Position numbers and translations under genes: made by a program | The notes under the pieces: generated by a model | Databases searched by the model: none | What the model saw: only the letters and a program-made list of their open reading frames with translations | Told to the model about the DNA's origin: nothing | DNA from: Oscillospiraceae bacterium | GTDB lineage: Bacteria > Bacillota > Clostridia > Oscillospirales > Ruminococcaceae | DNA length: 64,000 bases | Direction of reading: 5' to 3' | NCBI GenBank assembly: GCA_015067175.1 | Contig: SVMX01000006.1 | Span: forward strand, 62,001-126,000 | In this document: positions 16,747-31,883 of the stretch, piece after piece | Layout of the letters: the number at the start of each line of letters is the position of its first letter | Position numbering within the stretch: the first letter of the stretch is position 1

Positions 16747-16761
16747 AAACTTAACTTTCAA
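16744..16761 (+). repeat. Module-boundary repeat copy 2 (TTTAAACTTAACTTTCAA)
   Basis: Matches 17 of 18 bases of the consensus TTGAAACTTAACTTTCAA; overlaps the stop codon of the SprT-like gene. Confidence 0.8.
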
Positions 16762-17408: not shown

Positions 17409-17430
17409 TGATTACGCTCCTTTGTGACGT

Positions 17431-17682: not shown

Positions 17683-17782
17683 TATATATACCTCTTGACT
17701 TTCTCTCGCGGTTGTGATATACTTAACTCAACGGCATGAGCGCCGCCGCGAGGTTTCGGCGCTCTCCGTCTTTTGGGTTAGA

Positions 17783-17813
17783 CCGTCAGCACTCCAACTG
17801 CTGGCGGTTTTTT
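17783..17813 (+). terminator. Hairpin with six Ts, plus-strand orientation
   Basis: CCGTCAGCA (17783-17791) pairs with TGCTGGCGG (17799-17807), followed by TTTTTT. It overlaps the 3' end of the leftward gene at 17812 and would stop rightward transcription. Confidence 0.55.
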
Positions 17814-18021
17814 ACGTCTTAATGCTGTACAGTGTAGCGATTAAATCGTCAAGCTTGTTGCGCTCTTTGATTAGGCTTTGCATTTCGCCGTCTGCTTTGC
17901 TGATATTGAAATCTTCTGTGCTTGCTTTGGTAAGCTTGTCGCTCACTATTTCCCTTGCGGCTTTTAGATATTCGATAATATCAAGTATTTGCCTTACTGT
18001 TAAGTTTTTCATAAAATCCAT
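17812..18021 (-). CDS. Small coiled-coil phage protein
   Basis: A 69-aa protein that is almost wholly helical with heptad-like hydrophobic spacing (ILDIIEYLKAAREIVSDKL, then LIKERNKLDDLIATLY), so a dimeric coiled coil is likely. GAGGAGAAAG precedes the first ATG; a second in-frame ATG lies three codons in. It is the first gene downstream of the strong leftward promoter at 18079-18107 and is divergent from the RHH regulator. The function is unknown. Confidence 0.6.
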   Translation of the reverse strand: MDFMKNLTVRQILDIIEYLKAAREIVSDKLTKASTEDFNISKADGEMQSLIKERNKLDDLIATLYSIKT

Positions 18022-18078
18022 GTTTTCTTTCTCCTCGCGGTCAATAGGTTTTTGGGCTTATCCCTAACCTCTGTATAT

Positions 18079-18107
18079 ATTATAGCATACATGCATGTAT
18101 TTGTCAA
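18079..18107 (-). promoter_or_regulatory. Consensus leftward sigma-A promoter with an operator in its spacer
   Basis: On the minus strand TTGACA (18102-18107) and TATAAT (18079-18084) are exactly 17 bases apart, a perfect consensus. The spacer holds the palindrome ATACATGCATGTAT, so a bound repressor would exclude RNA polymerase. It drives the leftward accessory operon. Confidence 0.85.
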
Positions 18108-18178
18108 GCATGCATGCATGTTTTCTGCTTTTTGTACAAATTGCATACATGCATTTTGTGCACAATTACATGCATGTA
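18087..18178. promoter_or_regulatory. Operator array of ACATGCATGT-type palindromes
   Basis: Four related sites lie between divergent promoters: ATACATGCATGTAT (18087-18100), GCATGCATGCATG (18108-18120), GCATACATGCAT (18143-18154) and TACATGCATGTA (18167-18178). Close, regularly spaced palindromes next to a gene for an Arc-type regulator fit cooperative RHH binding. Confidence 0.75.
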
Positions 18179-18182
18179 TGTC

Positions 18183-18211
18183 TTGAAATTCACGCAGATA
18201 TTTGATATAAT
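18183..18211 (+). promoter_or_regulatory. sigma-A promoter of the RHH regulator gene
   Basis: TTGAAA (18183-18188), 17-base spacer, TATAAT (18206-18211). The last operator palindrome ends 4 bases before the -35, so autoregulation is likely. Confidence 0.85.
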
Positions 18212-18233
18212 AGGGAAAAGGAGTGTGAAAAGT

Positions 18234-18443
18234 ATGTCCCCCGTATCAAAAGCAAAGTTGGCAAGCAATGCGCGTTATAGAGAGAAACAAGAATTTATTC
18301 AACTGCGTGTTGGAGCAGGCGAGCGCGCCCGCTATAAAGCCGCCGCCGAACAACTCGGCGTATCGGTCAACCAACTGTTTATAAACGCCGTTGAACAGTT
18401 TATCGCAGATAATCTCGCGGAACCATTGAATAACGAGGATTGA
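18234..18443 (+). CDS. Ribbon-helix-helix (Arc/CopG-type) transcription regulator
   Basis: A 69-aa protein. Residues about 20-60 fit the RHH fold: a beta strand FIQLRVGAGE, helix RARYKAAAEQLG, turn, and helix SVNQLFINAVEQFIADNL; the N-terminus is basic. Such proteins dimerise and bind palindromic operators with the strand pair. AAAAGGAGTG precedes the ATG. The palindrome array directly upstream is its probable target, making it a candidate repressor of both itself and the leftward operon. Alone it could also be read as an antitoxin, but no toxin gene is adjacent. Confidence 0.8.
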   Translation: MSPVSKAKLASNARYREKQEFIQLRVGAGERARYKAAAEQLGVSVNQLFINAVEQFIADNLAEPLNNED

Positions 18444-18816
18444 ATTATCCTTTTGAGGCTCGCTTTTGCTTCTTTTGGCGAGACAAAAGAAGAGAAACCT
18501 ATAAATAATCGCCATCTATCCTTGACATAAAAGTTTTTTCGCGTCTTGATAGGTTCTTTCAGCGGTGGTACAATAGACTACCCGACGGAGAGCGATTTTC
18601 TGTTTCTGAACTATCCTCCGTCGGCGAAGCCATTCAACCGCCGCTGAAAGGTTCTGTCAAGACCCGACATTGTCCATGAGCGTACCGCAACATAGAAAAT
18701 TTGAGCCATCTATCAAAAGCGAATGGGAACAATGTCGAGCCATCGAAAAAAGTTTTCTGTCAACGTGCAAAGCTTTACCAATAACACGCGGGGCGTAAGC
18801 CCCGCTAAAAACTATA

Positions 18817-18850
18817 GCCGCCCCTGCGCTTCAGCGCGGGGCGGCTTTTT
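18817..18850 (+). terminator. Strong GC-rich terminator in the non-coding region
   Basis: A 12-bp stem with one bulge (GCCGCCCC-t-GCGC, loop TTCA, GCGCGGGGCGGC) followed by five Ts; probably ends rightward transcription from the RHH gene. Confidence 0.75.
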
Positions 18851-19020
18851 ACACGGCAAATTTGAGCCGATTTAGGGCGAATACTCCCCTGGTAATACGG
18901 AGTATTCGCTTACACACGGAATATCCCTCGGAGCAGTATTCGTGCGGCTTTAGGGGACATAAAATTTTCCCCGCTTTTGTGCGCCAGTATTTTCCAACTG
19001 GACAAAAACGGGAGTATTTT

Positions 19021-19038
19021 TTGAAACTTAACTTTCAA
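19021..19038 (+). repeat. Module-boundary repeat copy 3 (TTGAAACTTAACTTTCAA)
   Basis: Exact consensus copy at the right edge of the structured region, 3' of the leftward coiled-coil gene. Confidence 0.85.
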
Positions 19039-19058
19039 AAATCGCGACAAAAGGAAAG

Positions 19059-19074
19059 CCCCGAATAATCGGGG
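19059..19074 (-). terminator. Terminator of the leftward coiled-coil gene
   Basis: CCCCGA (19059-19064) pairs with TCGGGG (19069-19074); on the minus strand it is followed by a pyrimidine-rich CTTTCCTTTT tract and lies directly after the stop codon. Confidence 0.65.
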
Positions 19075-19317
19075 TCAATTCATTTTAATTATCTTGTCTT
19101 CAACAGGGAAAGGGTATTGATCGCGGAAGTTATAATCAATCCATTTAACGATTTCGTTTGTAACAGCTCTTGTTACCTCGGTGTTTTCTTCAATGATATC
19201 AAGTCTTTCTTCAATGTTGTCTAAGCGTCCCTCAATGTTATCTAACTTTTCATTGATAGGATTGATTTTTTCGTCTATTAACTGTGACAGCAATTTAATG
19301 TCCTCGGGTGTCAGCAT
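19075..19317 (-). CDS. Coiled-coil protein with repeated LDNIEERLD heptads
   Basis: An 80-aa protein in which residues 10-50 form tandem heptads (EKLDNIEGRLDNIEERLDII), a strong coiled coil, followed by a polar tail (IVKWIDYNFRDQYPFP). AAAGGAGAT precedes the start. Similar small coiled-coil proteins are common in Firmicutes phages and have been annotated as hypothetical or hemolysin-XhlA-like, but no membrane segment is seen here. Role unknown; it could act as an oligomeric scaffold or bind DNA-associated proteins. Confidence 0.65.
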   Translation of the reverse strand: MLTPEDIKLLSQLIDEKINPINEKLDNIEGRLDNIEERLDIIEENTEVTRAVTNEIVKWIDYNFRDQYPFPVEDKIIKMN

Positions 19318-19419
19318 GATGTATCTCCTTTCATGAAGTGGTGTTTTTATTCTAGCACACGTTTATGATTTTGTCAATCCTTGCTTATCAGTGTTTTTTA
19401 ATCATTGGTAAAAGTAATC

Positions 19420-19713
19420 TTAAAAACGTTTCTTATTAAAAAGGATTTTAATAGCTTCTATCATACCTTGTAAGATCGAGCAGTGTTTTAAGGCATAATT
19501 CCATAATTTGATTAAAGTTGAAATGATAAGTCCGAGAACGATAATGAAACTAATGACAATTGTTAAAATAAGCCAAATCTTGTTATTTTGAATGCAATTA
19601 TATATGAATGCAAAAATGTTTATAAATACAACCATAACGATTGTAGCATACTGCATTACTTTTAATGGATTTTTAGGCATTTTAATTTTTAATGTTTTAT
19701 GCTTGCGTTTCAT
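19420..19713 (-). CDS. Small membrane protein with two transmembrane helices
   Basis: A 97-aa protein: basic N-terminus (MKRKHKTLKIKMPKNP), a helix at about residues 19-41, a second at about 45-68, and a basic C-terminus ending FNKKRF. The two-helix hairpin with positive ends on both sides predicts cytoplasmic termini. It lies 11 bases downstream of the XRE repressor on the same strand. Membrane-bound partners of phage repressors include immunity or superinfection-exclusion proteins, which is a possibility only. Confidence 0.55.
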   Translation of the reverse strand: MKRKHKTLKIKMPKNPLKVMQYATIVMVVFINIFAFIYNCIQNNKIWLILTIVISFIIVLGLIISTLIKLWNYALKHCSILQGMIEAIKILFNKKRF

Positions 19714-19724
19714 ATTTCACTTTG

Positions 19725-19940
19725 CTAGTTTGTTTTTATAATACCGAAAAGCCAATCAGTACTTACATTGTATAGTTCTGCTAATAGTCCTATTGTTTCA
19801 ATATTGGGTTCTAATGCGCCTGTTTCGTATTTAGTTATATTACTACGTGAAGTATTAAGCGTATCTGCTACCTCTTGTTGTGTCATTTTAGAACTTTGTC
19901 TTGCTCTTTTTAAGTTTGTTGCGAAATTCTCTTTAAACAT
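19725..19940 (-). CDS. XRE-family (HTH_3) repressor
   Basis: A 71-aa single-domain Cro/CI-type DNA-binding protein. The helix-turn-helix is clear: NLKRARQSSKMTQQEVADTL, then NTSRSNITKYETGALEPNIETI, with the classic Q-x-x-V-A and Y-E-x-G features. The start at 19940 is chosen because AAGGGTGACC precedes it and because longer frames run into the operator region. It is a good candidate for the lysogeny repressor of the prophage. Four similar 15-bp sites lie directly upstream. Confidence 0.85.
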   Translation of the reverse strand: MFKENFATNLKRARQSSKMTQQEVADTLNTSRSNITKYETGALEPNIETIGLLAELYNVSTDWLFGIIKTN

Positions 19941-19958
19941 ATAGGTCACCCTTTCTTT

Positions 19959-20065
19959 GTTCCATTGTAGCACTATTGTACATAATTTTGTGTTCTTTTT
20001 TGGCACATTTGACAGTTCCATTTTAGAACGTAATGTGTTATAATATAATTGTTCCAAAAAAGAAC
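19959..20065. promoter_or_regulatory. Four GTTC-N-GAAC-like operators upstream of the XRE gene
   Basis: Related 15-mers: GTTCCATTGTAGCAC (19959-19973), GTTCTTTTTTGGCAC (19992-20006), GTTCCATTTTAGAAC (20015-20029) and GTTCCAAAAAAGAAC (20051-20065). They are inverted-repeat sites of the kind bound by dimeric XRE repressors. TTGACA and TATAAT sequences lie among them but not at a standard spacing. Confidence 0.65.
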
Positions 20066-20090
20066 ATTGCACCCTGCCCGAAAAGAAAAA

Positions 20091-20108
20091 CCCCGCCTAA
20101 CAGCGGGG
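20091..20108 (-). terminator. Terminator of the leftward 62-aa membrane protein gene
   Basis: CCCCGC (20091-20096) pairs with GCGGGG (20103-20108); the minus strand continues TTTTTCTTTTC. Confidence 0.85.
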
Positions 20109-20115
20109 AGAGGTA

Positions 20116-20304
20116 TTAGCGTTTCTTCTTGAACTTTTGCATTATTTCGCCTAGCACTAAGCCAATGCCCATACAAGATAAGGCTATAGCACCGAGTGCA
20201 ACAAAATTTCTTTCTCTTATTAAGTAGGCAAAATAACCGCAGACTGGTAAAAGAAACGGCGTAATAAATGCCGCTAGTTCTAGATTTCTTTTTGCTTTTC
20301 TCAT
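20116..20304 (-). CDS. Small membrane protein with two transmembrane helices
   Basis: A 62-aa protein: basic N-terminus (MRKAKRNLEL), helix about residues 10-28 (AAFITPFLLPVCGYFAYLI), a short RER turn, helix about 33-52, and a basic tail ending FKKKR. It has its own promoter (20350-20378), an AAGGAGG ribosome-binding site and its own terminator, so it is a separate leftward transcription unit between the XRE gene and the rightward structural operon. The function is unknown; constitutive expression would suit an immunity or exclusion role. Confidence 0.65.
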   Translation of the reverse strand: MRKAKRNLELAAFITPFLLPVCGYFAYLIRERNFVALGAIALSCMGIGLVLGEIMQKFKKKR

Positions 20305-20349
20305 GGCTGAATGCCTCCTTTGTAATGGTTAATATAGTGTGTCAGCTTA

Positions 20350-20378
20350 ATTATACCATAAATCGGGTAGGTGTGCAA
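20350..20378 (-). promoter_or_regulatory. sigma-A promoter of the 62-aa membrane protein gene
   Basis: On the minus strand TTGCAC (20373-20378) and TATAAT (20350-20355) with a 17-base spacer. Confidence 0.75.
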
Positions 20379-20391
20379 CAAATTAATACTA

Positions 20392-20418
20392 TTCCGCAAA
20401 GGAAACTGCGCAAAGCAG
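20392..20418 (+). promoter_or_regulatory. Twin GCAAA-loop hairpins, leader of the 20434 gene
   Basis: Two small stem-loops with identical GCAAA loops: TTCC-GCAAA-GGAA (20392-20404) and CTGC-GCAAA-GCAG (20406-20418), sixteen bases before the start codon. A second pair with the same loops precedes the candidate ssDNA-binding protein gene. Looks like a protein-binding RNA (or ssDNA) motif. Confidence 0.65.
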
Positions 20419-20433
20419 AGAAAGAGGTATTTT

Positions 20434-21021
20434 ATGAGCGAAGAGAAATTTTATGACAAGTGCATGGTATCAGATTACAACACATCATTTGAGTATTTCG
20501 TTGATTATTACGGCGAAACCGCAACAGTAAAGGCTGTCATTGAATGCGGTATTTACTTTCTAGTGTTGTCGGAAAGTACACCATATTATGGTGATGATAC
20601 ACAGATAGATTTGCTTGTGTGTTCAAACGATTTTGCGGATTCAATTCACCGTGCATTTTTTGTCACTCGCGGCATTTTAGGAGAAAAAAGCGTTGATAAG
20701 GTCAAAGATATATTTTCTACATTATGTCAAATGTCCTGTCAAATATCCTTTTTACGCCGTCGCTCTGAAAAAATGTATGTATATACTGCCGATGGCTCAC
20801 GAGAGGAATTAACGCTAACATCTGAAAACTTACAGCTAAGAATGATTGAGGCGTTTATAAAAGCTGGGCTTCAACTTAATAAAAGGTCGATTGATGATTT
20901 ATGCTTTGGGGCTTTTCATAAACATTGCAAAGAACTTTCAATTCTGCTTAGTCAAGATAAAGGTAAGCTTTTAGCAGACTTAGCGACATTAATTGACAGC
21001 GAGAGCGAGGCTGACAAATGA
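20434..21021 (+). CDS. Hypothetical phage protein at the start of the rightward operon
   Basis: A 195-aa soluble, acidic protein (MSEEKFYDKCMVSDYNTSFE...). The start at 20434 is chosen because AAAGAGG lies upstream and because the longer frame would pass through the twin hairpins. No domain was recognised; residues 20-95 look alpha/beta and 130-195 helical. It is the first gene of the rightward operon that leads into the membrane, ssDNA-binding and coat genes. An ATGA overlap joins it to the next small gene. Confidence 0.65.
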   Translation: MSEEKFYDKCMVSDYNTSFEYFVDYYGETATVKAVIECGIYFLVLSESTPYYGDDTQIDLLVCSNDFADSIHRAFFVTRGILGEKSVDKVKDIFSTLCQMSCQISFLRRRSEKMYVYTADGSREELTLTSENLQLRMIEAFIKAGLQLNKRSIDDLCFGAFHKHCKELSILLSQDKGKLLADLATLIDSESEADK

Positions 21022-21134
21022 GTATACCGTTTATTGATTTGATCTATATATGTGCATTCGCAGCCTCTCCATTAATAGTTTTTTTATCGTTCGTGTTTAT
21101 AAAATATTTTAAAGATAAGGGGGACGACCAATGA
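21018..21134 (+). CDS. 38-aa single-helix membrane peptide
   Basis: A short frame MSIPFIDLIYICAFAASP followed by LIVFLSFVFIKYF and an acidic tail KDKGDDQ. One transmembrane helix spans about residues 8-31. Both ends overlap neighbours by ATGA (21018-21021 and 21131-21134), strong evidence that it is translated. Small one-helix proteins are typical of inovirus minor coat or assembly components; which one cannot be told. Confidence 0.6.
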   Translation: MSIPFIDLIYICAFAASPLIVFLSFVFIKYFKDKGDDQ

Positions 21135-21523
21135 CAACAATTGATTTATCCTTGATGGAAAATTTATGGGGTTTTATGCTTGCGCTTGGCACTTTTACGG
21201 CTGCATTCTTTTTCTTGTTTGAATATTTGCTTCAAGCAGTTGTGTGGCTTATTCAGCGCATAAAGCTTCACCATTTCAAAGCAAAGGTAAAGACAAAATT
21301 CAATATGTCGGATTTCAATATCAAACCTTGTCCGTTCTGCGGCTGTGAACATATAAAGGTAGTGAAAAAGGACTTTTTAAAGGTTGAGCAATTCGCTTTA
21401 AAATGTGCCGCTTGCGACATGGGTACTCCGTATGGCGCACCTACTTATATAGTCAGCAGTTGGAACAACCGCGCAACAGACACCACGTTTTCAACGGCGA
21501 CAGCCGGTGATATAAATAACTAA
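21131..21523 (+). CDS. Membrane-anchored Lar-like zinc-ribbon protein
   Basis: A 130-aa protein with an N-terminal transmembrane helix (about residues 12-42, WGFMLALGTFTAAFFFLFEYLL in part) and a cytosolic C-terminal domain like the Lar restriction-alleviation family: IKPCPFCGCEHI near 65-76, CAACDMG near 91-97, and the late SSWNNRA motif that mirrors the family's W-N-x-R end. Lar proteins are normally soluble; a membrane-tethered form is unusual. It overlaps the upstream 38-aa gene by ATGA. Confidence 0.65.
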   Translation: MTTIDLSLMENLWGFMLALGTFTAAFFFLFEYLLQAVVWLIQRIKLHHFKAKVKTKFNMSDFNIKPCPFCGCEHIKVVKKDFLKVEQFALKCAACDMGTPYGAPTYIVSSWNNRATDTTFSTATAGDINN

Positions 21524-21530
21524 AAAACCT

Positions 21531-21567
21531 CTGCGCAAAGCAGAAAAATGATGTGTCCGCAAAGGAC
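21531..21567 (+). promoter_or_regulatory. Twin GCAAA-loop hairpins, leader of the ssDNA-binding protein gene
   Basis: CTGC-GCAAA-GCAG (21531-21543) and GTCC-GCAAA-GGAC (21555-21567) lie 16 bases before the start at 21584. Compared with 20392-20418 the loops are identical while one stem differs with compensating changes (TTCC/GGAA versus GTCC/GGAC). Confidence 0.7.
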
Positions 21568-21583
21568 AGAAAGTGAGGAAATT

Positions 21584-21898
21584 ATGGCATTTGTAGTAAG
21601 AAGTGCAAAGCACAAGAAAGGTACATACGAGGGCAAAGATTACGATAATATCAATATCTTTTGCGAGAATCCTTACAGCGAAAATGAACAGGTGCTTTTC
21701 GGTCCCGAAATCGAGATACTCAAAGTAAAGTACACGGATTTCACGGCGGCTTTTCAGCGCAACAAGGCAAACGGCTTCTCCATGATACAGGAGATGGAGG
21801 GAAACCTCATTCAGCCCGTATATGATAAGTTCGGCAATGTTGTTGACTTCACACTGTACAAGGCTGAAACAGAGCCAGAAACAAAAACCAACAAGTAA
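21584..21898 (+). CDS. Candidate phage ssDNA-binding protein (gV-like role)
   Basis: A 104-aa protein, beta-rich and charged: MAFVVRSAKHKKGTYEGKDY, then DNINIFCENPYS, with an acidic-to-basic C-terminal tail (AETEPETKTNK). No family was recognised with certainty. Size, beta pattern, the flexible charged tail and the place directly before the major coat gene match the gene V (ssDNA-binding) slot of filamentous phages. GTGAGG precedes the start at 21584. If correct it coats the phage single strand and may repress translation through the hairpins in its leader. Confidence 0.5.
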   Translation: MAFVVRSAKHKKGTYEGKDYDNINIFCENPYSENEQVLFGPEIEILKVKYTDFTAAFQRNKANGFSMIQEMEGNLIQPVYDKFGNVVDFTLYKAETEPETKTNK

Positions 21899-21937
21899 GC
21901 TTCCTTGACATAATCAATATGGAAAGGGGGTGAGAAT

Positions 21938-22138
21938 ATGGACGAGGTTACAGCTGTAGATACTAGCACTGTAATGGACAAGGTCACCGCAGGTCTTGAG
22001 GGTGGTTTTACAATGGGCACAAAAGCCTTTAACTTCCTTATGGACAATCCTCTGACATCGTTCATTATCGGTATTGGCTTTTGCTATACCGCGCTTGGCA
22101 TTATAAGACGTGCGCTCCGTGTGTCTAAGCGTATGTAA
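21938..22138 (+). CDS. Inovirus major coat protein (pVIII-like)
   Basis: A 66-aa protein with the classic layout: an acidic, flexible N-terminus (MDEVTAVDTSTVMDK), one helix crossing the membrane (about residues 38-58, LTSFIIGIGFCYTALGII) and a strongly basic C-terminus (RRALRVSKRM) to contact the packaged DNA. There is no cleavable signal peptide, as in Pf3. AAAGGGGGTGAG gives a strong ribosome-binding site and a GAAA-loop terminator-like hairpin follows, as expected for the most abundant virion protein. The C-terminal 43 residues recur in the protein at 22343. Confidence 0.85.
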   Translation: MDEVTAVDTSTVMDKVTAGLEGGFTMGTKAFNFLMDNPLTSFIIGIGFCYTALGIIRRALRVSKRM

Positions 22139-22144
22139 AAGGTG

Positions 22145-22175
22145 ATGGGGGGCAGAAATGCTCCCCATTAAATTT
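22145..22175 (+). terminator. Hairpin terminator after the major coat gene
   Basis: A 10-bp stem (22145-22154 with 22159-22168, one G-T pair) with a GAAA tetraloop, followed by TAAATTTT. Ff phages also place a terminator just after gene VIII. Confidence 0.7.
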
Positions 22176-22192
22176 TGAAACTTAACTTTCAA
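22175..22192 (+). repeat. Module-boundary repeat copy 4 (TTGAAACTTAACTTTCAA)
   Basis: Exact consensus copy between the coat terminator and the 33-aa peptide gene. Confidence 0.85.
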
Positions 22193-22209
22193 AAAAAGGG
22201 GTGAAATAA

Positions 22210-22311
22210 ATGAAACGCGCAAAAATCAATTGGCTGTTGATTTTCGGTATACTTTGCATGGCTGCTGGTGTTGGCTTTCTTGTGTTGTCAGCAGTAGGCT
22301 TGTTTGTATAA
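22210..22311 (+). CDS. 33-aa single-helix peptide, candidate minor coat protein
   Basis: Frame MKRAKINWLLIFGILCMA followed by AGVGFLVLSAVGLFV: three basic residues at the start and then one hydrophobic helix that fills the rest. AAAGGGGTG precedes the ATG. It is the size of Ff pVII and pIX (about 33 aa), the blunt-end proteins, and lies between the two coat-type genes. The assignment is by size, hydrophobicity and place only. Confidence 0.55.
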   Translation: MKRAKINWLLIFGILCMAAGVGFLVLSAVGLFV

Positions 22312-22342
22312 ATGTATTCGGATAAAAGGGAGGGGGTGAAAC

Positions 22343-22876
22343 ATGAAAAAGGTAAGATTATGTTTGACGTGTATCGCTTTGGCGCTGATGATGATTGTCT
22401 GCTCGGTCGGTGCTTCTGCCGCTTTGCTGTTCGATGCTGTAATACCCGATGATTTTGTTGATGATTTTTTCATTGGTGAGGCTGATGTAACAGTTAACGA
22501 AGCGGTTTATGCTATATCTGAGTATTTGGGCGTGCCTACTGACGATGTTGCGAAAAGTCTTGAATTTACATTGGAAGCTGATAAGAAACGCATTATGGTT
22601 TATGAGGCTGACGAACTTGTCGAGATCGTTTTAAAGGACAGTTCGGGCGCTGTGTGCTTAATGGCGGCGCAGTATTCTGTAGTGATTGAGAACGGAACAA
22701 CGAAAGAAATTATAACAAATCTTAGCGTTGGTATGTCGAGCGGTTTCACAATGGGTACAAAAGCCTTTAACTTCCTTGTGGATAATTCATTGACTTCATT
22801 TGTAATCGGTGTAGGCTTCTGCAGTGCGGCATTTGGATTAATAAAACGCGCATTGCGTGTATCGAAACGTATGTAA
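22343..22876 (+). CDS. Secreted-domain/coat-protein fusion (major coat paralogue)
   Basis: A 177-aa protein in three parts: a signal peptide (residues 1-26, ending SVGASA), an extracellular acidic domain (about 27-130), and a C-terminal copy of the major coat protein (about 134-177). The last part (SGFTMGTKAFNFLVDN, LTSFVIGVGFC, KRALRVSKRM) is nearly identical to residues 23-66 of the 21938 protein. It should sit in the filament through the coat-like segment and expose the other domain, as a cap or display protein. AGGGAGGGGGTGA is a strong ribosome-binding site. Confidence 0.75.
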   Translation: MKKVRLCLTCIALALMMIVCSVGASAALLFDAVIPDDFVDDFFIGEADVTVNEAVYAISEYLGVPTDDVAKSLEFTLEADKKRIMVYEADELVEIVLKDSSGAVCLMAAQYSVVIENGTTKEIITNLSVGMSSGFTMGTKAFNFLVDNSLTSFVIGVGFCSAAFGLIKRALRVSKRM

Positions 22877-22882
22877 GTTATG

Positions 22883-22912
22883 ATGGGGAGTTTTCACATT
22901 CCCCATTGTATT
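22883..22912 (+). terminator. Hairpin after the coat-fusion gene
   Basis: ATGGGGA (22883-22889) pairs with TCCCCAT (22900-22906), then TGTATTTT. It mirrors the hairpin after the major coat gene, in line with duplication of the whole gene-plus-terminator unit. Confidence 0.6.
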
Positions 22913-22930
22913 TTGAGACTTAACTTTCAA
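22913..22930 (+). repeat. Module-boundary repeat copy 5 (TTGAGACTTAACTTTCAA)
   Basis: One mismatch to the consensus; lies between the second hairpin and the tip-protein gene. Confidence 0.85.
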
Positions 22931-22944
22931 AAAGGGGTGTTTGA

Positions 22945-24486
22945 ATGAAAAAAGTAATCGGTATTTTGCTTGTGGCTTTGCTTTGTTGTTGTACCTTTGT
23001 GTCAACGGTTGCGCCTGTTGTATATGCCGAAAACGGTGATTCATTCTTTAATTCACTGACAGATTTTGCACAAGTTTCTGATGATAAGCTTAATGAGCTT
23101 GTAGGCTCTTATGTGGACTTTTATCAAGAGCTCGGAAGCGGTGATATACTCGGTGCATTGACTACGGGTGCAGTAGATATTCCGCTTGAATGGCTCGGCT
23201 TTGCAGGTCAAAGCTTAATCGAAACGGCTGACGCTTGTAACGTTACGGGTGTAAGTTCAAGTACTTTGGTCATGGCTGCGGATAAATTAAAGAATGATTC
23301 CGATTTAATGTATATGGTTTCTGATGTGGGTGAACTTCTGGTGTATGACGGGGTTAATAAGCTTATTCGTCCCGTCGAAGCTACCGACGTCCCGAAGATT
23401 GACGGCTCAACATTCAAAGAGCTTTGCAATGAATATAGTTCAACCTACTGCCCGAAAAACACGAAAGATTTCATATCATGGCGAACAAGGACATTTGACG
23501 AAGCGAATACAAATGCGTTTTTACTCATGTATAGAAATACTTTCTTCTGTAGTGATATATGGCCAGAGGTATATTTGCTTCCGTTCTATACCGATGGCAA
23601 GGAAACGTATTATAGCACTTATCAGTTCCATTTCTATAAAAAAATAGTACAGAATGAAGACGGTACATATACAACGACCTTGTATTGTGATGTTTGGAGC
23701 TTGCTCGATAATACAGAGCCTAAGACATATACAATTGATGATATTTCTAAATATGAATACATTGAAATCAGTCCTTTTATATGGAGTTCGGGTGCGTTAT
23801 CTCTTGATTATTATAGTACGGATTCGGAATATATTACACGTGACAATACAAGCGGAGATATTTTTCATTTTGATTTAATAAATTCTGTTTATCCTGCAGA
23901 GTATTTTTCTACTGATTTAGGTAGCAGCCTTGAGCCTGATGATGTCCCGTTTAGAGTTACCACAGATGACCATGATAGTTCATGTAATTGCAACGGCGGT
24001 CACGATATCGGCTTCTACTGCAATAACAAGCCTATAGAAAAGGATTTTGCATTAGTAGATTTCACAAAGTTTGCTGATGATGATATCGTTACCTTAAAAG
24101 GCGATACCATATATGATTACACAATCACCAATAAAGAGGGCGATATAACAACCATAAACAACTATATCACTAACAATTACACTTACCCTGTGACAGATAC
24201 GGGCGACAGCGGGGAAGAGGACAGCGGAACAAACACGGGCGGTTCTGGTGACGTGAATGTGAATGTTGACGTTAATGTGAATAATACGATAGGCGGCTAT
24301 GGTGATACAAGTGCTTATGAATATGAACAGGCGAATGTTGCCGAAGCTTTGGGACAGATACCCGAAGTAAGTGATGGTTTTATAGGTTTCTTTACTAAGG
24401 TGTTTGACTGGCTTCCGCCGCCTATTTTCGGACTTATAGTCGGCGGTCTTGGTTTGGCTATAGTTCTACGCATTGCGGGGCGGTGA
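22945..24486 (+). CDS. pIII-like minor coat / adsorption (tip) protein
   Basis: A 513-aa secreted, membrane-anchored protein. It has a signal peptide (residues 1-28, ending PVVYA), a long extracellular region with an aromatic, Asp-rich middle part and a CNCNGGHDIGFYC cysteine cluster near residue 350, then a low-complexity linker rich in Gly, Asp, Asn and Val (about 415-450, e.g. VNVNVDVNVNNTIGG), and a final helix PPPIFGLIVGGLGLAIVL with a short basic tail. This is the architecture of filamentous-phage receptor-binding proteins. No known N-domain fold was recognised, so the receptor is unknown. Confidence 0.75.
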   Translation: MKKVIGILLVALLCCCTFVSTVAPVVYAENGDSFFNSLTDFAQVSDDKLNELVGSYVDFYQELGSGDILGALTTGAVDIPLEWLGFAGQSLIETADACNVTGVSSSTLVMAADKLKNDSDLMYMVSDVGELLVYDGVNKLIRPVEATDVPKIDGSTFKELCNEYSSTYCPKNTKDFISWRTRTFDEANTNAFLLMYRNTFFCSDIWPEVYLLPFYTDGKETYYSTYQFHFYKKIVQNEDGTYTTTLYCDVWSLLDNTEPKTYTIDDISKYEYIEISPFIWSSGALSLDYYSTDSEYITRDNTSGDIFHFDLINSVYPAEYFSTDLGSSLEPDDVPFRVTTDDHDSSCNCNGGHDIGFYCNNKPIEKDFALVDFTKFADDDIVTLKGDTIYDYTITNKEGDITTINNYITNNYTYPVTDTGDSGEEDSGTNTGGSGDVNVNVDVNVNNTIGGYGDTSAYEYEQANVAEALGQIPEVSDGFIGFFTKVFDWLPPPIFGLIVGGLGLAIVLRIAGR

Positions 24487-24490
24487 TGAT

Positions 24491-24664
24491 ATGGGCTTTT
24501 GGGATTTTCTATCTTTTCTTTGGAATAGCGCTTGTGATTTTATGAGCCTTGAAATAACAATTTTTGGCGAGGGCGCGATATTTACTTTGTGGGAGTTCGC
24601 GCTCGGCTCTGCAATTTTTCTGCTTGTGATGTATGTGGTCATGCGTATAATTACGGGAGATTGA
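24491..24664 (+). CDS. 57-aa membrane protein, candidate minor coat/assembly protein
   Basis: Begins MGFWDFLSFLWNSACDFMSLEI and continues into one transmembrane helix (about residues 33-53, LWEFALGSAIFLLVMYVVM). GCGGTGATGAT gives only a weak ribosome-binding site; the gene starts 4 bases after the tip-protein stop, so coupling is likely. The start at 24491 is preferred to a frame beginning inside the upstream gene. Its place after the tip protein fits a pVI-like anchor role, by analogy only. Confidence 0.6.
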   Translation: MGFWDFLSFLWNSACDFMSLEITIFGEGAIFTLWEFALGSAIFLLVMYVVMRIITGD

Positions 24665-24675
24665 GAGGTTTTGAC

Positions 24676-25089
24676 ATGGGTTTTCTTGATTTTCTTACAG
24701 CCCTTAAATGGACGGCTGAGGGTATCGAGTGGATAACTTCAATTGGCGAAGATGGCAATACAATTTTAACTTACGGAGAAGATACAGACGGTGACGGTGT
24801 ACCCGATACCGATGTTTTAGAATATATACTACCTCAGACAGAAACGACCGTTGAGAAGTCTATAATCATAATGTCCGCTGATGGGACAATGACGGTATAT
24901 GACGAGGGCGGCAATATTACTGCTGAGGATTGCGATACAGCTTATTCGCTGTGGGTGTCTGAAAATGGCATTATGGAAAAAAGTCTTGACAATTATTCGG
25001 TAACAGAGGGTTTGTTGTTGTGTGTGCTTCTGATGGGCGCTTTCTATTTTATAAAGTCGCTTTTCAGAAAGAAAGATATATACAGGTGA
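24676..25089 (+). CDS. Membrane protein with a calcium-binding-like DTDGDGVPDTD loop
   Basis: A 137-aa protein whose first residues (MGFLDFLTALKW) resemble the start of the preceding 57-aa protein. A loop near residue 36 (DTDGDGVPDTD) has the aspartate spacing of EF-hand or thrombospondin type 3 calcium sites. A C-terminal helix (about residues 111-129, LLLCVLLMGAFYFI) and basic tail (KSLFRKKD) anchor it with the acidic part outside. It may be a virion-end or assembly component; the family is not recognised. Confidence 0.55.
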   Translation: MGFLDFLTALKWTAEGIEWITSIGEDGNTILTYGEDTDGDGVPDTDVLEYILPQTETTVEKSIIIMSADGTMTVYDEGGNITAEDCDTAYSLWVSENGIMEKSLDNYSVTEGLLLCVLLMGAFYFIKSLFRKKDIYR

Positions 25090-25093
25090 TAAT

Positions 25094-25264
25094 ATGGAGT
25101 TCTTTTTCTTTCCTACAGATTATCAGAAATTTTCAATGTTTATTGAATGGGTGTTCAATAAGGCTTTGGATATAGTGTTTTTGGTATGGATAATGAACTA
25201 TTTATTTAGCACTTTACAGCGCATTACAAGGTGCTTGTCACATAATGGGGGTAGAATGCTATGA
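25094..25264 (+). CDS. 56-aa membrane peptide
   Basis: Begins MEFFFFPTDYQKFSMFIEW with a hydrophobic helix around residues 20-40 (FNKALDIVFLVWIMNYLF) and a basic end (RITRCLSHNGGRML). AGGTGATAAT precedes the ATG, and the stop overlaps the next start (ATGA at 25261-25264). This tight overlap with genes on both sides supports it as coding despite its size. It is one of a chain of small membrane proteins between the tip protein and Zot. Confidence 0.55.
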   Translation: MEFFFFPTDYQKFSMFIEWVFNKALDIVFLVWIMNYLFSTLQRITRCLSHNGGRML

Positions 25265-25425
25265 GTGGTATATTAACGCTTGGTAAGTGGCTTAATGAGG
25301 GTGCAAGCTTCGGTGTTCTTATCAGTGCAATATCTCAATCGGTTTTACCTTGGGTGTTCTGCCTGTGGGTTGCTAAGTGGCTTTACGATATACTGATTGA
25401 TATGGGAAACGGGGGTAGAAAGTAA
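25261..25425 (+). CDS. 54-aa membrane peptide
   Basis: Begins MSGILTLGKWLNEGASFG; the helix covers about residues 17-44 (VLISAISQSVLPWVFCLWVAKW) and the tail is MGNGGRK. The start overlaps the preceding stop and the stop overlaps the Zot start (TAATG at 25423-25427). GGGGGTAG lies before the start. Its role is unknown; the position directly before Zot recalls the small membrane proteins used in inovirus assembly. Confidence 0.55.
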   Translation: MSGILTLGKWLNEGASFGVLISAISQSVLPWVFCLWVAKWLYDILIDMGNGGRK

Positions 25426-26243
25426 TGGAGGGTCTAAGCTTATTTTTTAGGCGTTTGTTTAAGTTTCCGAAGTTTCTTATGCTCTTTATCCGTGATCTAT
25501 ATGACTATCTGAAAAATCATAGATGGCAGAAGTTTGAGGGTTGGGGCTTACATATTTATTGCGGAAAATTCGGCGCGGGAAAAACCTGCACAATGGTGAG
25601 GGATTGTTATAATCTGTGTTGTAAGTATAAAGGTCTTACGGTCATAACGAATCTTAAATTGAACAATTTCCCCGAAGATACAACAATACTTCCTCTTAAC
25701 AGTATCGAGGACATTCTTAACGCTCCCGATAACACAATAGTCCTTGTTGACGAAATAGGTACGATATTCAATAGCCGCGATTTTATGGGAAAGAAAGAGG
25801 GCTGTTTGCCTAAAATCCTGTTTCAGCATTTATGCCAGTGCAGACATCGTTTCATGATGATAATGGGAACTGTACAGCGTTGGGGCTTCTTGGATAAACA
25901 GCTTAGAGATATCACAAGTGATGTGACTTTGTGTTCAACGTTTCCTGCGCACCCGTTTAGTCGCATGGTGACTAATTGTTGCTATGATGCAGAGGAATAT
26001 GACTTGTTTTATCAATCGCCTATGCGCCCGCTTATTGCAATTAGCCTAGAGGTTTGGCTTCAAACGGATTTCATGCGCGGCTTGTATGATACCAAAGAAA
26101 TGGTGAATACAATGCTTACTCAACAATATGTGTCTGACGAAGAGATTAACCGCAACCGTGCTTTTGATAGTATAGGAATACCTATTACATCAATGGATAA
26201 AAGGGAAGAGCGTAAGCTCAGAAAACAGGTACATCACCGCTAA
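25425..26243 (+). CDS. zot: Zot/pI-like filamentous phage assembly ATPase
   Basis: A 272-aa P-loop protein. Walker A is CGKFGAGKTCT (about residues 46-56) and Walker B is NTIVLVDEIGT (about 103-113), followed by the CQCRHRF and GTVQRWGFLDKQLRD stretches typical of the Zot N-terminal domain. The hydrophobic N-terminus (LFKFPKFLMLFI) may contact the membrane. Zot/pI drives virion extrusion through the cytoplasmic membrane and is the hallmark gene of inoviruses. It lacks the long periplasmic C-domain found in diderm phages, which fits a host without an outer membrane. Confidence 0.88.
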   Translation: MEGLSLFFRRLFKFPKFLMLFIRDLYDYLKNHRWQKFEGWGLHIYCGKFGAGKTCTMVRDCYNLCCKYKGLTVITNLKLNNFPEDTTILPLNSIEDILNAPDNTIVLVDEIGTIFNSRDFMGKKEGCLPKILFQHLCQCRHRFMMIMGTVQRWGFLDKQLRDITSDVTLCSTFPAHPFSRMVTNCCYDAEEYDLFYQSPMRPLIAISLEVWLQTDFMRGLYDTKEMVNTMLTQQYVSDEEINRNRAFDSIGIPITSMDKREERKLRKQVHHR

Positions 26244-26244
26244 A

Positions 26245-26262
26245 TTGAAACTTAACTTTCAA
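26245..26262 (+). repeat. Module-boundary repeat copy 6 (TTGAAACTTAACTTTCAA)
   Basis: Exact consensus copy directly after the Zot stop codon and before the replication gene. Confidence 0.85.
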
Positions 26263-26286
26263 AAAAATCATAAAGGACTGATATAA

Positions 26287-27573
26287 ATGGAGAGCTCGCT
26301 CGACTGGCTCACACTTACCTTAACACCCGAAAACAAAGCAATACCATCAGAGGAGAATCACGCTAGAGCGTTGGATATTTTGCGTGATACTCTGCTTTTG
26401 GACGAACTGTTTACAATGCTTGAATTTAAGGGTGTGGCGCGTTTCTACGGTGTACGTCTTGAGTATGACGATGTAAATATTAAGATAGCAGACCCCGAAA
26501 AGTTTAATAGCCAGGGTTTGTGTATTGAGCTTTCAAGCAATGGCTTGAAATATTTCACGGAGTACCTTGCGACTTACGGTTTAACGCTTCGCTTGTGGTG
26601 CGCTCGTTTTCGCGCGTTATGCACTGAGGGTTGGATAACTAAGTGCACACGTTATGACTTCGCTATGGACGATATTTGTCATGATGACGATGTTCCAAAG
26701 CTTACAATGAAACGCGTGCTTAATTGCATTTGTGACGATGAGGTTGTTTGTTCCGCGCGTACATATTCGGACGATTGCAAGAATTATATAAGCTTTAAGC
26801 GCAATTACAAACGCAGAAACGGTAAAGGACTTTGGGGTACTACTGTCTATTTAGGACAGCGTGAATCGGGGCTTATAGTACGCTTTTATGATAAGAAGAT
26901 AGAGCAGGAGCAAAAAGGGAAGACCCTGCCCGAAAATTTAAAGTCGTGGGTACGCTGTGAATTTGAATTTCATAATGAAAAGGCTACAGCTTGCTTCAAT
27001 GCTTTCATAGATCTGCCGCCCGAAGATTTTAAAAAATATATGTGCGGTGTCTGCAATGGTTCTGTGCGGTTTGTATATAGAACTGTTACTAATGTGAGCC
27101 GTTGCCCTGTCAAGCGTTGGTGGCGCGAGTTTCTAAACGGTTGTACTGACCGCTTTCGTTTGCCTAAGCGCAAGCCTATCCGTACAGCGTTAGCACGATG
27201 TGAACGCGGTATAAGACAGTATACAAGAAAATTTTATACATTGCTTCTACAATTAGGCTCTGAGGGCTTTTTGAAAATGATAATGGCTTTTGGTGTTGAA
27301 TTGGCACAAAAAGGAAAAGAGGTTATTGACCCCGAACTTGTGAATAATCTGCGTGAGCATAAACGCGATTATGAGGAAATAGACGGCTTCAAGTGGTATG
27401 ATTATACTACCGAAGTAAGTAATTTAAGGTCTGTTATAGCTCTTGATAAATACGAATACAACTGGAATCTGCGGCGCTTAGAGAATAGCGGCGAGGACGG
27501 GCGACAGTATTTGATATCTGAGCTTGCGGACGTGTATAGACCTTATAAAGTGCGCGGATATGGCGCGTGCTGA
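26287..27573 (+). CDS. rep: Rolling-circle replication initiator, Rep_trans family
   Basis: A 428-aa protein matching the replication initiation factor family (Rep_trans type). Signature stretches are TRYDFAMDDI (R-x-D-x-x-x-D, about residues 120-129), WGTTVYLGQRESGLIVRFYDKKIEQ in two pieces (near 184-208) and WVRCEFEFHN (near 221-230). These proteins nick the double-strand origin with a tyrosine and start rolling-circle synthesis, as pII does in Ff. AAAGGACTGATAT lies before the start. The target nick site is probably in the hairpin region at 18.5-18.9 kb. Confidence 0.82.
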   Translation: MESSLDWLTLTLTPENKAIPSEENHARALDILRDTLLLDELFTMLEFKGVARFYGVRLEYDDVNIKIADPEKFNSQGLCIELSSNGLKYFTEYLATYGLTLRLWCARFRALCTEGWITKCTRYDFAMDDICHDDDVPKLTMKRVLNCICDDEVVCSARTYSDDCKNYISFKRNYKRRNGKGLWGTTVYLGQRESGLIVRFYDKKIEQEQKGKTLPENLKSWVRCEFEFHNEKATACFNAFIDLPPEDFKKYMCGVCNGSVRFVYRTVTNVSRCPVKRWWREFLNGCTDRFRLPKRKPIRTALARCERGIRQYTRKFYTLLLQLGSEGFLKMIMAFGVELAQKGKEVIDPELVNNLREHKRDYEEIDGFKWYDYTTEVSNLRSVIALDKYEYNWNLRRLENSGEDGRQYLISELADVYRPYKVRGYGAC

Positions 27574-27586
27574 TGGGTGTGTGTAT

Positions 27587-28039
27587 ATGATAACTGGAAA
27601 AATCAATCCCGTATGCTATAAATGCATTTGTCGTGCTTGTGGTCAAGCAACGTGTCCCCATCGGGATTATAAGTATAAACGCTGCTTCGGTGTCTGCATG
27701 AGAAAAAAGGAATACCGTCCTATACTCGATTGTAAGAATTTTTATTTGAAATGCTTCCCGAAGTATAAAATTAGGAGAGTGTACAAGCGCCCTCAGCTTC
27801 GCTATGTCGATAAGACAAATGCGGACGATATCCGCGTTATGCTTTCCGAAATACTGCGCTTGCTTCGCCCGGAGAGCGCGGCGGCTAACGCTGATATTAA
27901 TTGCATAAAGCATGAATGTATTTGCGTAAAGTGTCCGCTTTCTGATAAGTGCATGGAGCGTTGCGGCTTGTGTAAGGACTATAAGGGTCAAAATCCCGTG
28001 CGGCTCTGTGCGCGGCGTGCACAGTTTTTAAGGGGGTGA
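27587..28039 (+). CDS. Cysteine-rich zinc-finger-like phage protein
   Basis: A 150-aa basic protein with about 16 cysteines. An N-terminal cluster (CYKCICRACGQATCPH) and a C-terminal one (CIKHECICVKCPLSDKC, then CGLCKDY) look like zinc-binding modules. Start choice is open: ATG at 27587 gives 150 aa, ATG at 27560 gives 159 aa and overlaps the end of rep; neither has a strong ribosome-binding site. It probably binds nucleic acid or metal; no family was recognised. Confidence 0.6.
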   Translation: MITGKINPVCYKCICRACGQATCPHRDYKYKRCFGVCMRKKEYRPILDCKNFYLKCFPKYKIRRVYKRPQLRYVDKTNADDIRVMLSEILRLLRPESAAANADINCIKHECICVKCPLSDKCMERCGLCKDYKGQNPVRLCARRAQFLRG

Positions 28040-28043
28040 TTTA

Positions 28044-28298
28044 GTGCTTTTTAAGAGGAAGTTCATCATGAAAATTCTTAACGAGGGCGGTTATTTTGTG
28101 GTTGTTTGCCCTAAAGTGCCGCGCTGTTGTTCTGAATTCATAGATGTATATTTATTTGATCGTCAAGGCTATTTTGTTATGAAAGTAAGTAGAAAGTTCT
28201 TCGAAAAAACGTGGGTTGTTAGCAAAGTCGTCTTTGAACGTTTGACTACAGTCGCTGAATTTGGCATGATATGCTTTTACTATTATATAAAGGAGTGA
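28044..28298 (+). CDS. Hypothetical 84-aa phage protein (GTG start)
   Basis: An 84-aa basic, beta-rich protein starting with GTG, preceded by AAGGGGGTGATTTA, a good ribosome-binding site. An in-frame ATG eight codons later is a weaker alternative. Features include a CCSEF pair and aromatic strands (GYFVVVC, GYFVMKVSRKFF). It is part of a tight chain of genes after rep. No family was recognised and no membrane segment is clear. Confidence 0.55.
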   Translation: MLFKRKFIMKILNEGGYFVVVCPKVPRCCSEFIDVYLFDRQGYFVMKVSRKFFEKTWVVSKVVFERLTTVAEFGMICFYYYIKE

Positions 28299-28300
28299 TA

Positions 28301-28441
28301 ATGATGGATTGCAGTAACTGTATATTTCATTGTAAAAATATGTTAGGTATCGACTTTTGTGATGTCAGCGATAGCTACATAGAAGATACAAAGGAATGGG
28401 CGGAAAAATGCCCGTTTTATCATGATGATAGCAAGGAGTGA
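28301..28441 (+). CDS. 46-aa cysteine-rich peptide
   Basis: Starts ATGATG after AAAGGAGTG; the sequence begins MMDCSNCIFHCKNML and continues IDFCDV and WAEKCPFYHDD. Five cysteines in an otherwise acidic peptide suggest a small metal-binding knuckle. The good ribosome-binding site and tight spacing support translation. It resembles the 80-aa Cys-rich protein of the left arm in style but not clearly in sequence. Confidence 0.5.
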   Translation: MMDCSNCIFHCKNMLGIDFCDVSDSYIEDTKEWAEKCPFYHDDSKE

Positions 28442-28445
28442 TATT

Positions 28446-28535
28446 GTGCGTTTCATCGGTCATATATTGTGTGGCTTGGGTCGCGGCATTGGTTACGGTC
28501 TGAGCCGTGTAATAATGTCAATATTTAGAAAATAG
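28446..28535 (+). CDS. 29-aa glycine-rich amphipathic peptide (GTG start)
   Basis: Frame begins GTG at 28446 after AAGGAGTGATATT and reads MRFIGHILCGLGRGIGYG followed by LSRVIMSIFRK. It is hydrophobic with basic ends, similar in size to inovirus end-cap proteins. The stop codon (28533-28535) overlaps the first two bases of the right 75-bp repeat, so the last phage gene ends exactly where the repeat starts. Coding status is inferred from the ribosome-binding site and spacing. Confidence 0.4.
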   Translation: MRFIGHILCGLGRGIGYGLSRVIMSIFRK

Positions 28536-28608
28536 CTTGTAAAAACGGCGCGTATGATGTATAATAACGAATAGGGAATAAATAACAGCTAATTTCGTAA
28601 AATAAAAA
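28534..28608 (+). repeat. Right 75-bp direct repeat (attR half)
   Basis: Identical to 16054-16128, offset 12,480 bases. This copy supplies the promoter now used by the xer gene. Confidence 0.95.
28537..28565 (+). promoter_or_regulatory. sigma-A promoter of the xer gene, inside the repeat
   Basis: TTGTAA (28537-28542), 17-base spacer, TATAAT (28560-28565). The same promoter is present in the left copy. Confidence 0.85.
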
Positions 28609-28619
28609 TTTTACGAAAT
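28592..28619 (+). other. dif-like Xer recombination site (attR)
   Basis: A perfect 11-6-11 site: arm ATTTCGTAAAA (28592-28602), centre TAAAAA (28603-28608), arm TTTTACGAAAT (28609-28619), the arms being exact reverse complements. The left arm agrees at 9 of 11 positions with the general bacterial dif left-arm consensus. It lies in the xer leader, 15 bases before the start codon. Confidence 0.8.
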
Positions 28620-28634: not shown

Positions 28635-29684
28635 ATGCCTAAAAAGCATAATTACGACAATGCGCCGCAATTGCTTAGAGATTTTATTATATATTTGCAG
28701 CTTGTAAAAAATCGTTCTGAGTTAACTGTACTGAACTATTATACTGATCTGCGTTCATTTCTGCGATTTTACAAGATAAAACTCGGTCGTGCTTCGTCTG
28801 ATCCAGATGAGTTCTCAAAGATTGATATAATCGATATCACTGAAGCTGAGATCAAAGCTGTTGATCTGATGCTTGTACAGGAATTTCTTATATTTGAAAA
28901 GACAGAGAAATCCAACGAACACAAGGCTCGTTATCGTAAGGCTGTGGCACTCAGACAGTTCTTTAAATTCCTTACAAACAACAAAGGTCTGTTTGAAGTT
29001 AATCCTATGACTAATCTCGAGCTACCATCTCCGAAGCCTGCGCTGCCTAAATATCTCACGCTCGAACAATCGCTCGAAATGCTTACAAATATAGATACGC
29101 CTGATCAGAAGCGCGATTACTGTATAGTAGTGTTCTTTCTGAACTGTGGTATGCGATTAAGTGAGTTAGTTGGCATAAATATCAGCGATATCAGAGCTAC
29201 GCATGACGCAAATGGTAATGAACTTTACTCGCTTAAAGTGCTCGGTAAAGGCAGTAAAGAACGCATTGTGTATTTAAATAATGCTTGTGTAAACGCTTAC
29301 ATGGATTACATTGATCCAAGTATAACCGACGAAGAAACTCGCCAAAAGAACGGAAATCGCCCACTAAATGCTAAGGAGGACGCATTGTTCTTAAGCCGCC
29401 GCGGTACGAGGATATCAAACCGACGCGTTCAGCAGATAGTTGAACAGTGTTTCAAGAGCTGCGGGCTTGATAATATGGGGCTTTCCGTTCATAAATTGCG
29501 TCATACTGCGGCTACGCTCATGTATCAGAACGGCGTTGATGTGCGTGTTTTAAAGGACGTTCTGGGTCATGAAAATCTTAATACAACTCAGATATACACA
29601 CACGTTTCCAACGCACAGATGCAGAGCGCTATGCAGAACAATCCACTCAGTAATGTGACTAATAAAAAGAAAAAGGAGCAATGA
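28635..29684 (+). CDS. xer: Xer-type tyrosine recombinase
   Basis: A 349-aa tyrosine recombinase. The N-terminal SAM-like core-binding domain covers about residues 8-130; the catalytic residues are R in NCGMRLSEL (about 176), K in LGKGSKER (about 202), H-x-L-R in VHKLRHTAA (about 290), H in LGHENLNTT (about 316) and the nucleophile Y in TQIYTHV (about 325). GAGAGGAGG precedes the ATG. It lies outside the prophage boundaries and next to a dif-like site, as in the XerS/difSL arrangement of streptococci, so it is read as the host chromosome-dimer resolvase rather than a phage integrase. Confidence 0.85.
   Translation: MPKKHNYDNAPQLLRDFIIYLQLVKNRSELTVLNYYTDLRSFLRFYKIKLGRASSDPDEFSKIDIIDITEAEIKAVDLMLVQEFLIFEKTEKSNEHKARYRKAVALRQFFKFLTNNKGLFEVNPMTNLELPSPKPALPKYLTLEQSLEMLTNIDTPDQKRDYCIVVFFLNCGMRLSELVGINISDIRATHDANGNELYSLKVLGKGSKERIVYLNNACVNAYMDYIDPSITDEETRQKNGNRPLNAKEDALFLSRRGTRISNRRVQQIVEQCFKSCGLDNMGLSVHKLRHTAATLMYQNGVDVRVLKDVLGHENLNTTQIYTHVSNAQMQSAMQNNPLSNVTNKKKKEQ

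Positions 29685-29894: not shown

Positions 29895-31883
<1,989 letters not shown>

Follow-up and report, generated by a model that had tools for sequence, protein, structure and literature searches.

A filamentous prophage at the dif site beside xer in a bacterium of a Gram-positive gut order: probable integration through host Xer and a possible replacement for the xer promoter

A prophage of 12,480 bp, measured between the ends of identity (16129 to 28608, forward strand), is inserted at a dif site adjoining a host xer gene in the window, the whole 64,000-nucleotide stretch of Oscillospiraceae bacterium DNA analysed here. Our preferred reading, to which we give a probability of a little over three in four, is that this filamentous prophage integrates by exploiting host Xer at dif, and compensates for the loss of the xer promoter with a promoter that it carries. 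Both junctions, the empty sites, the terminus location, the recurrence of the junction in other species and an exchange of arm alleles can be read directly from the sequence. Being inserted at host dif with a dif-like attachment sequence, and with no recombinase found inside it, the element has the sequence features of an integrative mobile element exploiting Xer (IMEX), and probably represents this class in a Gram-positive order whose dif system works with one recombinase.

The right end, attR (28592-28619, forward strand), reads ATTTCGTAAAA-TAAAAA-TTTTACGAAAT and is the perfect 11-6-11 palindrome that a first-pass annotation of this DNA had reported, 11 of 11 arm bases being complementary. 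The same annotation had described a left end with an identical left arm and centre and another right arm, and repeat identity stopping at the last base of the centre, and both descriptions were borne out. The left end, attL (16112-16139, forward strand), reads ATTTCGTAAAA-TAAAAA-GTTTGCTCAAA, its left arm and centre the same as those of attR and its right arm degenerate; and the exact repeat, of 75 bp (16054-16128 and 28534-28608, both forward strand), is bounded on both outer sides by bases that differ and ends with the final base of the centre. Of its bases 58 precede the arm and 17 make up the left arm and the centre; the first part contains a promoter-like sequence and a leader. The window holds two perfect 11-6-11 palindromes, at 28592 and 29843, where 100 first-order Markov controls averaged 0.02; the second, shortly 3' of xer, is at a guess a terminator. 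A degenerate-pattern scan of the bacterium's own genome (83.8% complete), allowing up to three mismatches, returned just C2:90592 and C2:78112, the dif and the attL half-site, and thus no different dif elsewhere, which the annotation had named as telling against its reading. From the palindrome, the GC skew and the linkage to xer in the genus, attR is taken to be a complete dif, and would function as one.

The host xer gene (28635-29684, forward strand; PF00589, PF02899) starts 15 bp past dif and encodes a Xer-type tyrosine recombinase; it is the sole PF00589 match on this contig, among 10 in the genome. The enzyme scores below the cut-offs of the NCBIfam equivalog models for XerC (201.9 against 335.15) and XerD (192.8 against 329.6). 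An identification as XerS was likewise discarded, on a score of 114.7 bits against a cut-off of 267 for the NCBIfam model and on a site of 28 bp with a 6-bp centre and perfect arms, unlike the streptococcal difSL, for which the available text of PMC5357621 gives a length of 31 bp, a centre of 11 bp and arms that are unequal. The left flank carries what we take to be a rarA-like gene (13701-14951, forward strand), followed by an S1-domain gene (14935-15855, reverse strand; PF00575), and the right flank what is presumably a ligA-like gene (29895-31871, reverse strand).

Empty sites were found in two sister species, at L011 and L013 (L numbers denote loci or contigs compared, and G numbers genomes, G000 being that of the window). 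As the annotation had anticipated for prophage-free relatives, both show the S1-domain gene, dif and xer in that order without the prophage. Their Xer proteins are 91% (L011) and 88% (L013) identical to that of the window, their S1-domain genes, upstream of dif-xer, 76% and 80%, and their rarA-like genes 93% and, over the part present in L013, 92%; L013 also has the ligA-like flank (92% identity) on the far side of dif-xer. The suggestion that GC skew would place the site at the terminus fared equally well: in G000 the cumulative skew of the contig reaches its maximum at 91,739, and the site, at 90,592, is about 1.1 kb away. The corresponding positions are 85,291 and 90,051 in G032 (4.8 kb apart) and 227,075 and 232,642 in G042 (5.6 kb), the skew being computed on one contig per genome and, for G032 and G042, on its first 400 kb.

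Linkage of such a palindrome to xer extends through the genus and beyond. An xer orthologue is present in 40 of 43 genomes of the genus, and 39 of these 40 have the palindrome (up to two mismatches) on the xer contig. The distance to the xer match is no more than 130 bp in 33 of them and 205-1,278 bp in the other 6; the one remaining genome has the palindrome on a separate contig. Fifty upstream stretches of up to 600 bp from other genera yielded a perfect 11-6-11 site in the same layout in 18 and, on visual classification, a site matching at 9 or 10 of 11 arm positions in 6 more; the 26 stretches without a site include some that are short or masked, and a perfect but unlike palindrome in G099 was not counted. 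Two of the genomes without a site in the scanned stretch, G077 and G098, have a perfect one about 1 kb upstream. The arms of these palindromes in other genera are different and lineage-specific. Orthologue-grade xer matches (E under 1e-58, by our own count) were found in 91 of 100 genomes, own included, and some Xer match at E 0.001 in 97; three of the nine genomes without an orthologue-grade match (G017, G030 and G056) are at least 90% complete. Within the genus such a match is missing from G017, G024 and G030; a single divergent dif-like site was seen in G030, on contig C88. Some relatives have extra dif-like palindromes, which were rejected as dif: in the two genomes inspected, G016 and G032, the extra site lies between hisH-like and hisA-like genes, and in G032 and G042 the extra palindromes are more distant from the skew peak than the xer-linked site. 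A second dif-like palindrome with the centre GTTTTC lies between hisH-like and hisA-like genes, by eye, in L104 (16229-16256) and L103 (16889-16916), and sites with this centre occur in eight further genomes of the genus (G001, G006, G011, G013, G026, G028, G036 and G039).

By gene content the element is a filamentous-phage genome, with candidate coat and adsorption genes assigned by size and place. A Zot/gene I-type assembly ATPase (25425-26243, forward strand; PF05707 at 23.4 bits against a cut-off of 20.3, phrog_197, phrog_1675) and a rolling-circle replication initiator of the Rep_trans type (26287-27573, forward strand; PF02486, 3e-27) occur together in a small genome of 12,480 bp, the gene combination by which an inovirus is recognised. 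Two candidate coat genes (21938-22138 and 22343-22876, both forward strand) were picked out by size, a membrane segment and place, and are connected by a 147-nt repeat, D1; the former has no PHROG match and the sole Pfam match of the latter is below cut-off. The candidate adsorption protein (22945-24486, forward strand), proposed from size and place, has no family match in Pfam or PHROG and shows 65% identity over 421 residues in the viral contig L163. Other frames encode a SprT-like protein (16758-17408, reverse strand; PF10263), a helix-turn-helix regulator that is a candidate repressor (19725-20072, reverse strand; PF01381) and a Lar-like restriction alleviation protein (21131-21523, forward strand; phrog_599 at 2.6e-10, slightly below the Pfam cut-off). 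Adjoining the right end is a cysteine-rich protein without a Pfam match (27524-28039, forward strand), a candidate helper of integration or excision; it is 95% identical over 154 residues in L163, yet the Rep proteins of the two phages are only 32% identical, and frames resembling it were seen by eye in G020 and G021. A 29-codon frame with a GTG start (28446-28535, forward strand), its DNA conserved in L163 and partly in L012, has a stop touching the promoter module. A 23-nt repeat around TTGAAACTTAACTTTCAA has five copies across the phage, at 16198, 19021, 22175, 22913 and 26245. The annotation had noted no integrase inside the element, and indeed no recombinase was found there by a PF00589 scan of the whole genome together with Pfam searches of 17 of its larger frames. 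In a collection of named phages 16 records match the Zot protein, with 25-30% identity among the ten matches listed. An evenly drawn sample of the order gave a Zot match at 1e-30 in 2 of 394 genomes, this one and G154, so the phage is not common.

The same junction recurs in other species. Both ends were located for six prophages, in G000, G006, G027, G039, G041 and G154. The first four are simple cases, in which attP has the shape seen in TLCphi, one arm and the centre matching dif and the other arm degenerate, and in which exact identity spans 17 or 18 bases from the start of the arm. In G006 an 8,072-bp phage has left arm and centre repeated; in G027 attL is beside an S1 gene (81% identical) on one contig, with attR and xer on another; and in G039 attL shares a contig with the Zot gene. 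In G041 the pieces are spread over three contigs. Its attL has the host left arm ATTTCGTAAAA, the right end of the phage has the phage arm ATTGCGTAAAA, which differs from it in one base, and near xer the dif reads ATTGCGTAAAA-TAGAAA-TTTTACGAAAT. Rejoined, the separated host arms would form a perfect palindrome; the phage arm now occupies the place of the left arm. The contig that carries the phage right end breaks off with the final base of the centre, just where a second junction, if there is one, would be expected to make the assembly fork. G154, of another genus, repeats this arm-replacement pattern with a Zot phage and a second, 1.9-kb element in tandem at dif, the arm at dif stemming from the inner element. 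In reverse-complement coordinates of L289 (G154) the sites are at 3593, 10182 and 12121, and the 1.9-kb element has two frames that by eye resemble a recombinase, the frame being short, and a HUH-Rep.

Zot matches numbered 15, in 13 of 100 genomes. Nine adjoin dif or share a contig that has its half-site at one end (G000, G006, G020, G021, G031, G038, G039, G041 and G047), in three a tyrosine recombinase adjoins Rep (G003, a second copy in G021, and G035), and three are fragments or weak (a second piece in G039, G044 and G053). Seven viral contigs were found through Zot: L163, a mosaic relative of this phage whose Xer is 97% identical to that of the window, L164 and L165 have phage, dif and xer in that order; a frame for a tyrosine recombinase is present in L166 and L169; and L167 and L168 show neither dif-xer nor such a frame. 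On the Zot tree the dif label needs four changes, at least three of them forced by well supported branches, and its clustering does not exceed that of shuffled labels (189 of 500 shuffles were as low), so no single origin is claimed. Searches for attL found none for G020, G038, G012 and G004, and for G021 just a half-site, 12,073 bp away and with three mismatches. G020 and G021 also have palindromes 11.5 kb upstream of dif, but these were dismissed as attL on account of centres unlike that of dif.

A promoter-like sequence, matching the consensus as TTGTAA-17-TATAAT, is present at each end: one copy (16057-16085, forward strand) is now directed into the left end of the phage, and the other (28537-28565, forward strand), at the phage right end, is directed toward xer from 26 bp before dif. 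The annotation had remarked neither on this right-end sequence, nor on the position of dif in the xer leader, nor on the left-end hairpin described below. In phage-free relatives dif usually lies between a predicted, consensus-like promoter and xer, and insertion of a phage at dif therefore parts xer from its promoter. Promoter scoring was entered with 24 loci of the genus, of which 7 could not be oriented and 15, free of phage, were scored; 11 of the 15 have at least 10 of 12 consensus matches, each 25-38 bp before dif, and the others fall below this (9 in G008 and G029, 8 in G042, 6 in G009). At the empty sister sites L011 and L013 the match before dif is weak, at 9 and 10 of 13. Twelve of 16 element right ends have a predicted promoter 13-43 bp before dif (G000, G006, G038, G012, G004, G021, G031, G027 at L012, the Zot phage of G154, L163, L164 and L165), G012 and G004 being remnants; all twelve score 11 or more out of 13 points and have a spacer of 17 bp, and at most 2.3% of single-base shuffles reach such a score. 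One scan of the window gave promoter hits no more numerous than in shuffles. The promoter module is found in no other of 44 genomes beyond one weak match, and is present in one viral contig. Just inside the left end a terminator-like hairpin (16164-16191, forward strand, from sequence) lies in the direction of the host promoter; such a hairpin faces the host promoter in four of six prophages (G000, G006, G027 and G154) and has the opposite orientation in G039 and G041. In G021 an insertion sequence, by look with an IS110-type transposase (L098, 15497-16667), lies between dif and xer, and its last frame runs through dif. The S1-to-dif gap at attL, 256 bp, is 88 bp longer than the 168 bp of the empty site L011; its last bases, in the stretch 15930-16053, align with the right end of phage L163, and this stretch may hold the remnant of an earlier prophage.

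Insertion through homologous recombination across the 75-bp repeat, with the boundary at dif a coincidence, would explain the exactness of that repeat in the window, and also G039, where 79 of 80 bases upstream of the arm are identical. It is nevertheless improbable: G006 and G027 share just 18 or 17 bases from the start of the arm and 1 or 2 before it, 19 contiguous bases in all, too few for ordinary homologous recombination; identity stops at the end of the centre or one base after it in all four simple cases; and arm alleles have been exchanged in G041. Integration by another tyrosine recombinase of the host, for instance that in L001, might be entertained in view of the 10 PF00589 matches in the genome, but we consider it highly improbable, since across the genus no recombinase other than this xer is known to be linked to the palindrome, and xer orthologues in other genera have palindromes with other arms upstream. 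The position of xer next to the right end, and the recombinase gene that follows Rep in some relatives (the three named above), could suggest that Xer is the integrase of the phage itself and that the element truly includes xer. We give this almost no credence, as orthologue-grade xer is in 91 of the 100 genomes and the Zot profile in 13, and xer stands at the GC-skew peak; its presence in the empty sites refutes that reading for this locus.

The origin of the right-end promoter is a separate matter, and here an unselected passenger, either captured host DNA or the remnant of an earlier phage at the site, is unlikely though it deserves to be taken seriously. In G000, G039 and G154 the right-end and left-end copies are the same or almost the same in sequence, and the left flank of the window aligns with the right end of L163 from 16039, and with its own right end only from 16049. 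Against a passenger, the two promoters of G006 and G027, host and phage, differ in sequence and yet both fit the consensus, and the exact repeat of G000 and of G154 opens three bases before the -35 box. Moreover, the four right ends without a promoter match near dif (G041, G020, G047 and the inner element of G154) include two with a predicted promoter between dif and xer, about 800 bp (G041) and 82 bp (G020) before the gene, at scores reached by 4 and 1 of 300 shuffles, and one, G047, with a predicted promoter 92 bp before dif, within the last phage frame.

Integration through host Xer, with compensation for the lost promoter, is therefore the reading that we favour. The attP site would consist of one good Xer arm, the centre and a degenerate second arm; the single Xer of the host would pair it with chromosomal dif and carry out strand exchange at the centre, so that the end far from xer is left with a half-site and the end adjoining xer with a complete dif. 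Catalysis by this Xer is the step that the shape of the junctions suggests. Such an insertion would cut xer off from its promoter, and the promoter carried just before the phage half-site would make good the loss, so that the lysogen would still make the recombinase needed by both phage and host. The phage thus probably replaces the xer promoter with its own, if, as their consensus matches imply, the promoter-like sequences are active and compensation is their purpose. A more tentative proposal, toward which we lean slightly less than evenly, is that the phage controls its recombinase, ending the host transcript at its left end and providing a promoter of its own at the right, and in this way sets the Xer level of the lysogen and, with it, its own excision and the dimer resolution of the host.

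Several known systems share parts of this arrangement. In the available text of PMC4246890, TLCphi and VGJphi of Vibrio are likewise a filamentous phage or satellite inserting at dif via host Xer, and TLCphi, whose attP has one good arm and centre and a degenerate other arm, is the nearest in attP shape; they use XerC and XerD in a Gram-negative host, in contrast to the single Xer of a Gram-positive one here, and that part of the source makes no mention, for the Vibrio elements, of an xer gene beside dif or of promoter replacement. LME-1 of Legionella, called phage-like in the corresponding portion of PMC9765430, is also a mobile element at a single-recombinase dif (that of XerL) with long symmetric arms, its att being 22 bp of dif, and leaves an intact dif at one end and an altered one at the other; however, dif and xerL are more than 400 kb apart in Legionella, and 15 bp separate dif and xer here. 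The streptococcal XerS/difSL system (PMC5357621, available text) likewise combines a single recombinase with a dif adjoining its gene, in Firmicutes. The same portion of PMC9765430 sets apart two traits, long symmetric arms (Legionella) and dif beside xer (XerS, XerH), and the dif system described here unites both. Inoviruses of Enterocloster and other Gram-positives resemble the present element in their gene I homologue, their occurrence as Clostridia prophages and their direct-repeat flanks (PMC10061712, PMC6813254), and Xer is not named in the main text of either paper as available. In the available text of PMC3025954, dif was predicted in 97 of 100 single-chromosome Firmicutes, assuming XerCD, and Ruminococcus is not named there. 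Searches of an open-access library showed no earlier report of the present arrangement among the papers that they listed.

With this element, the range of dif piracy by filamentous phages comes to include a Gram-positive gut order, and a dif system that relies on one recombinase, has arms of perfect symmetry and lies beside the recombinase gene. Since many genera have a palindrome upstream of xer, with arms particular to the lineage, dif could perhaps be predicted across the order. The parasite severs the gene of its helper enzyme from its promoter, and seems to mend the damage with a promoter of its own; and if the phage does control Xer, then the attachment module of this phage group would be a promoter plus half a dif, and not dif alone.
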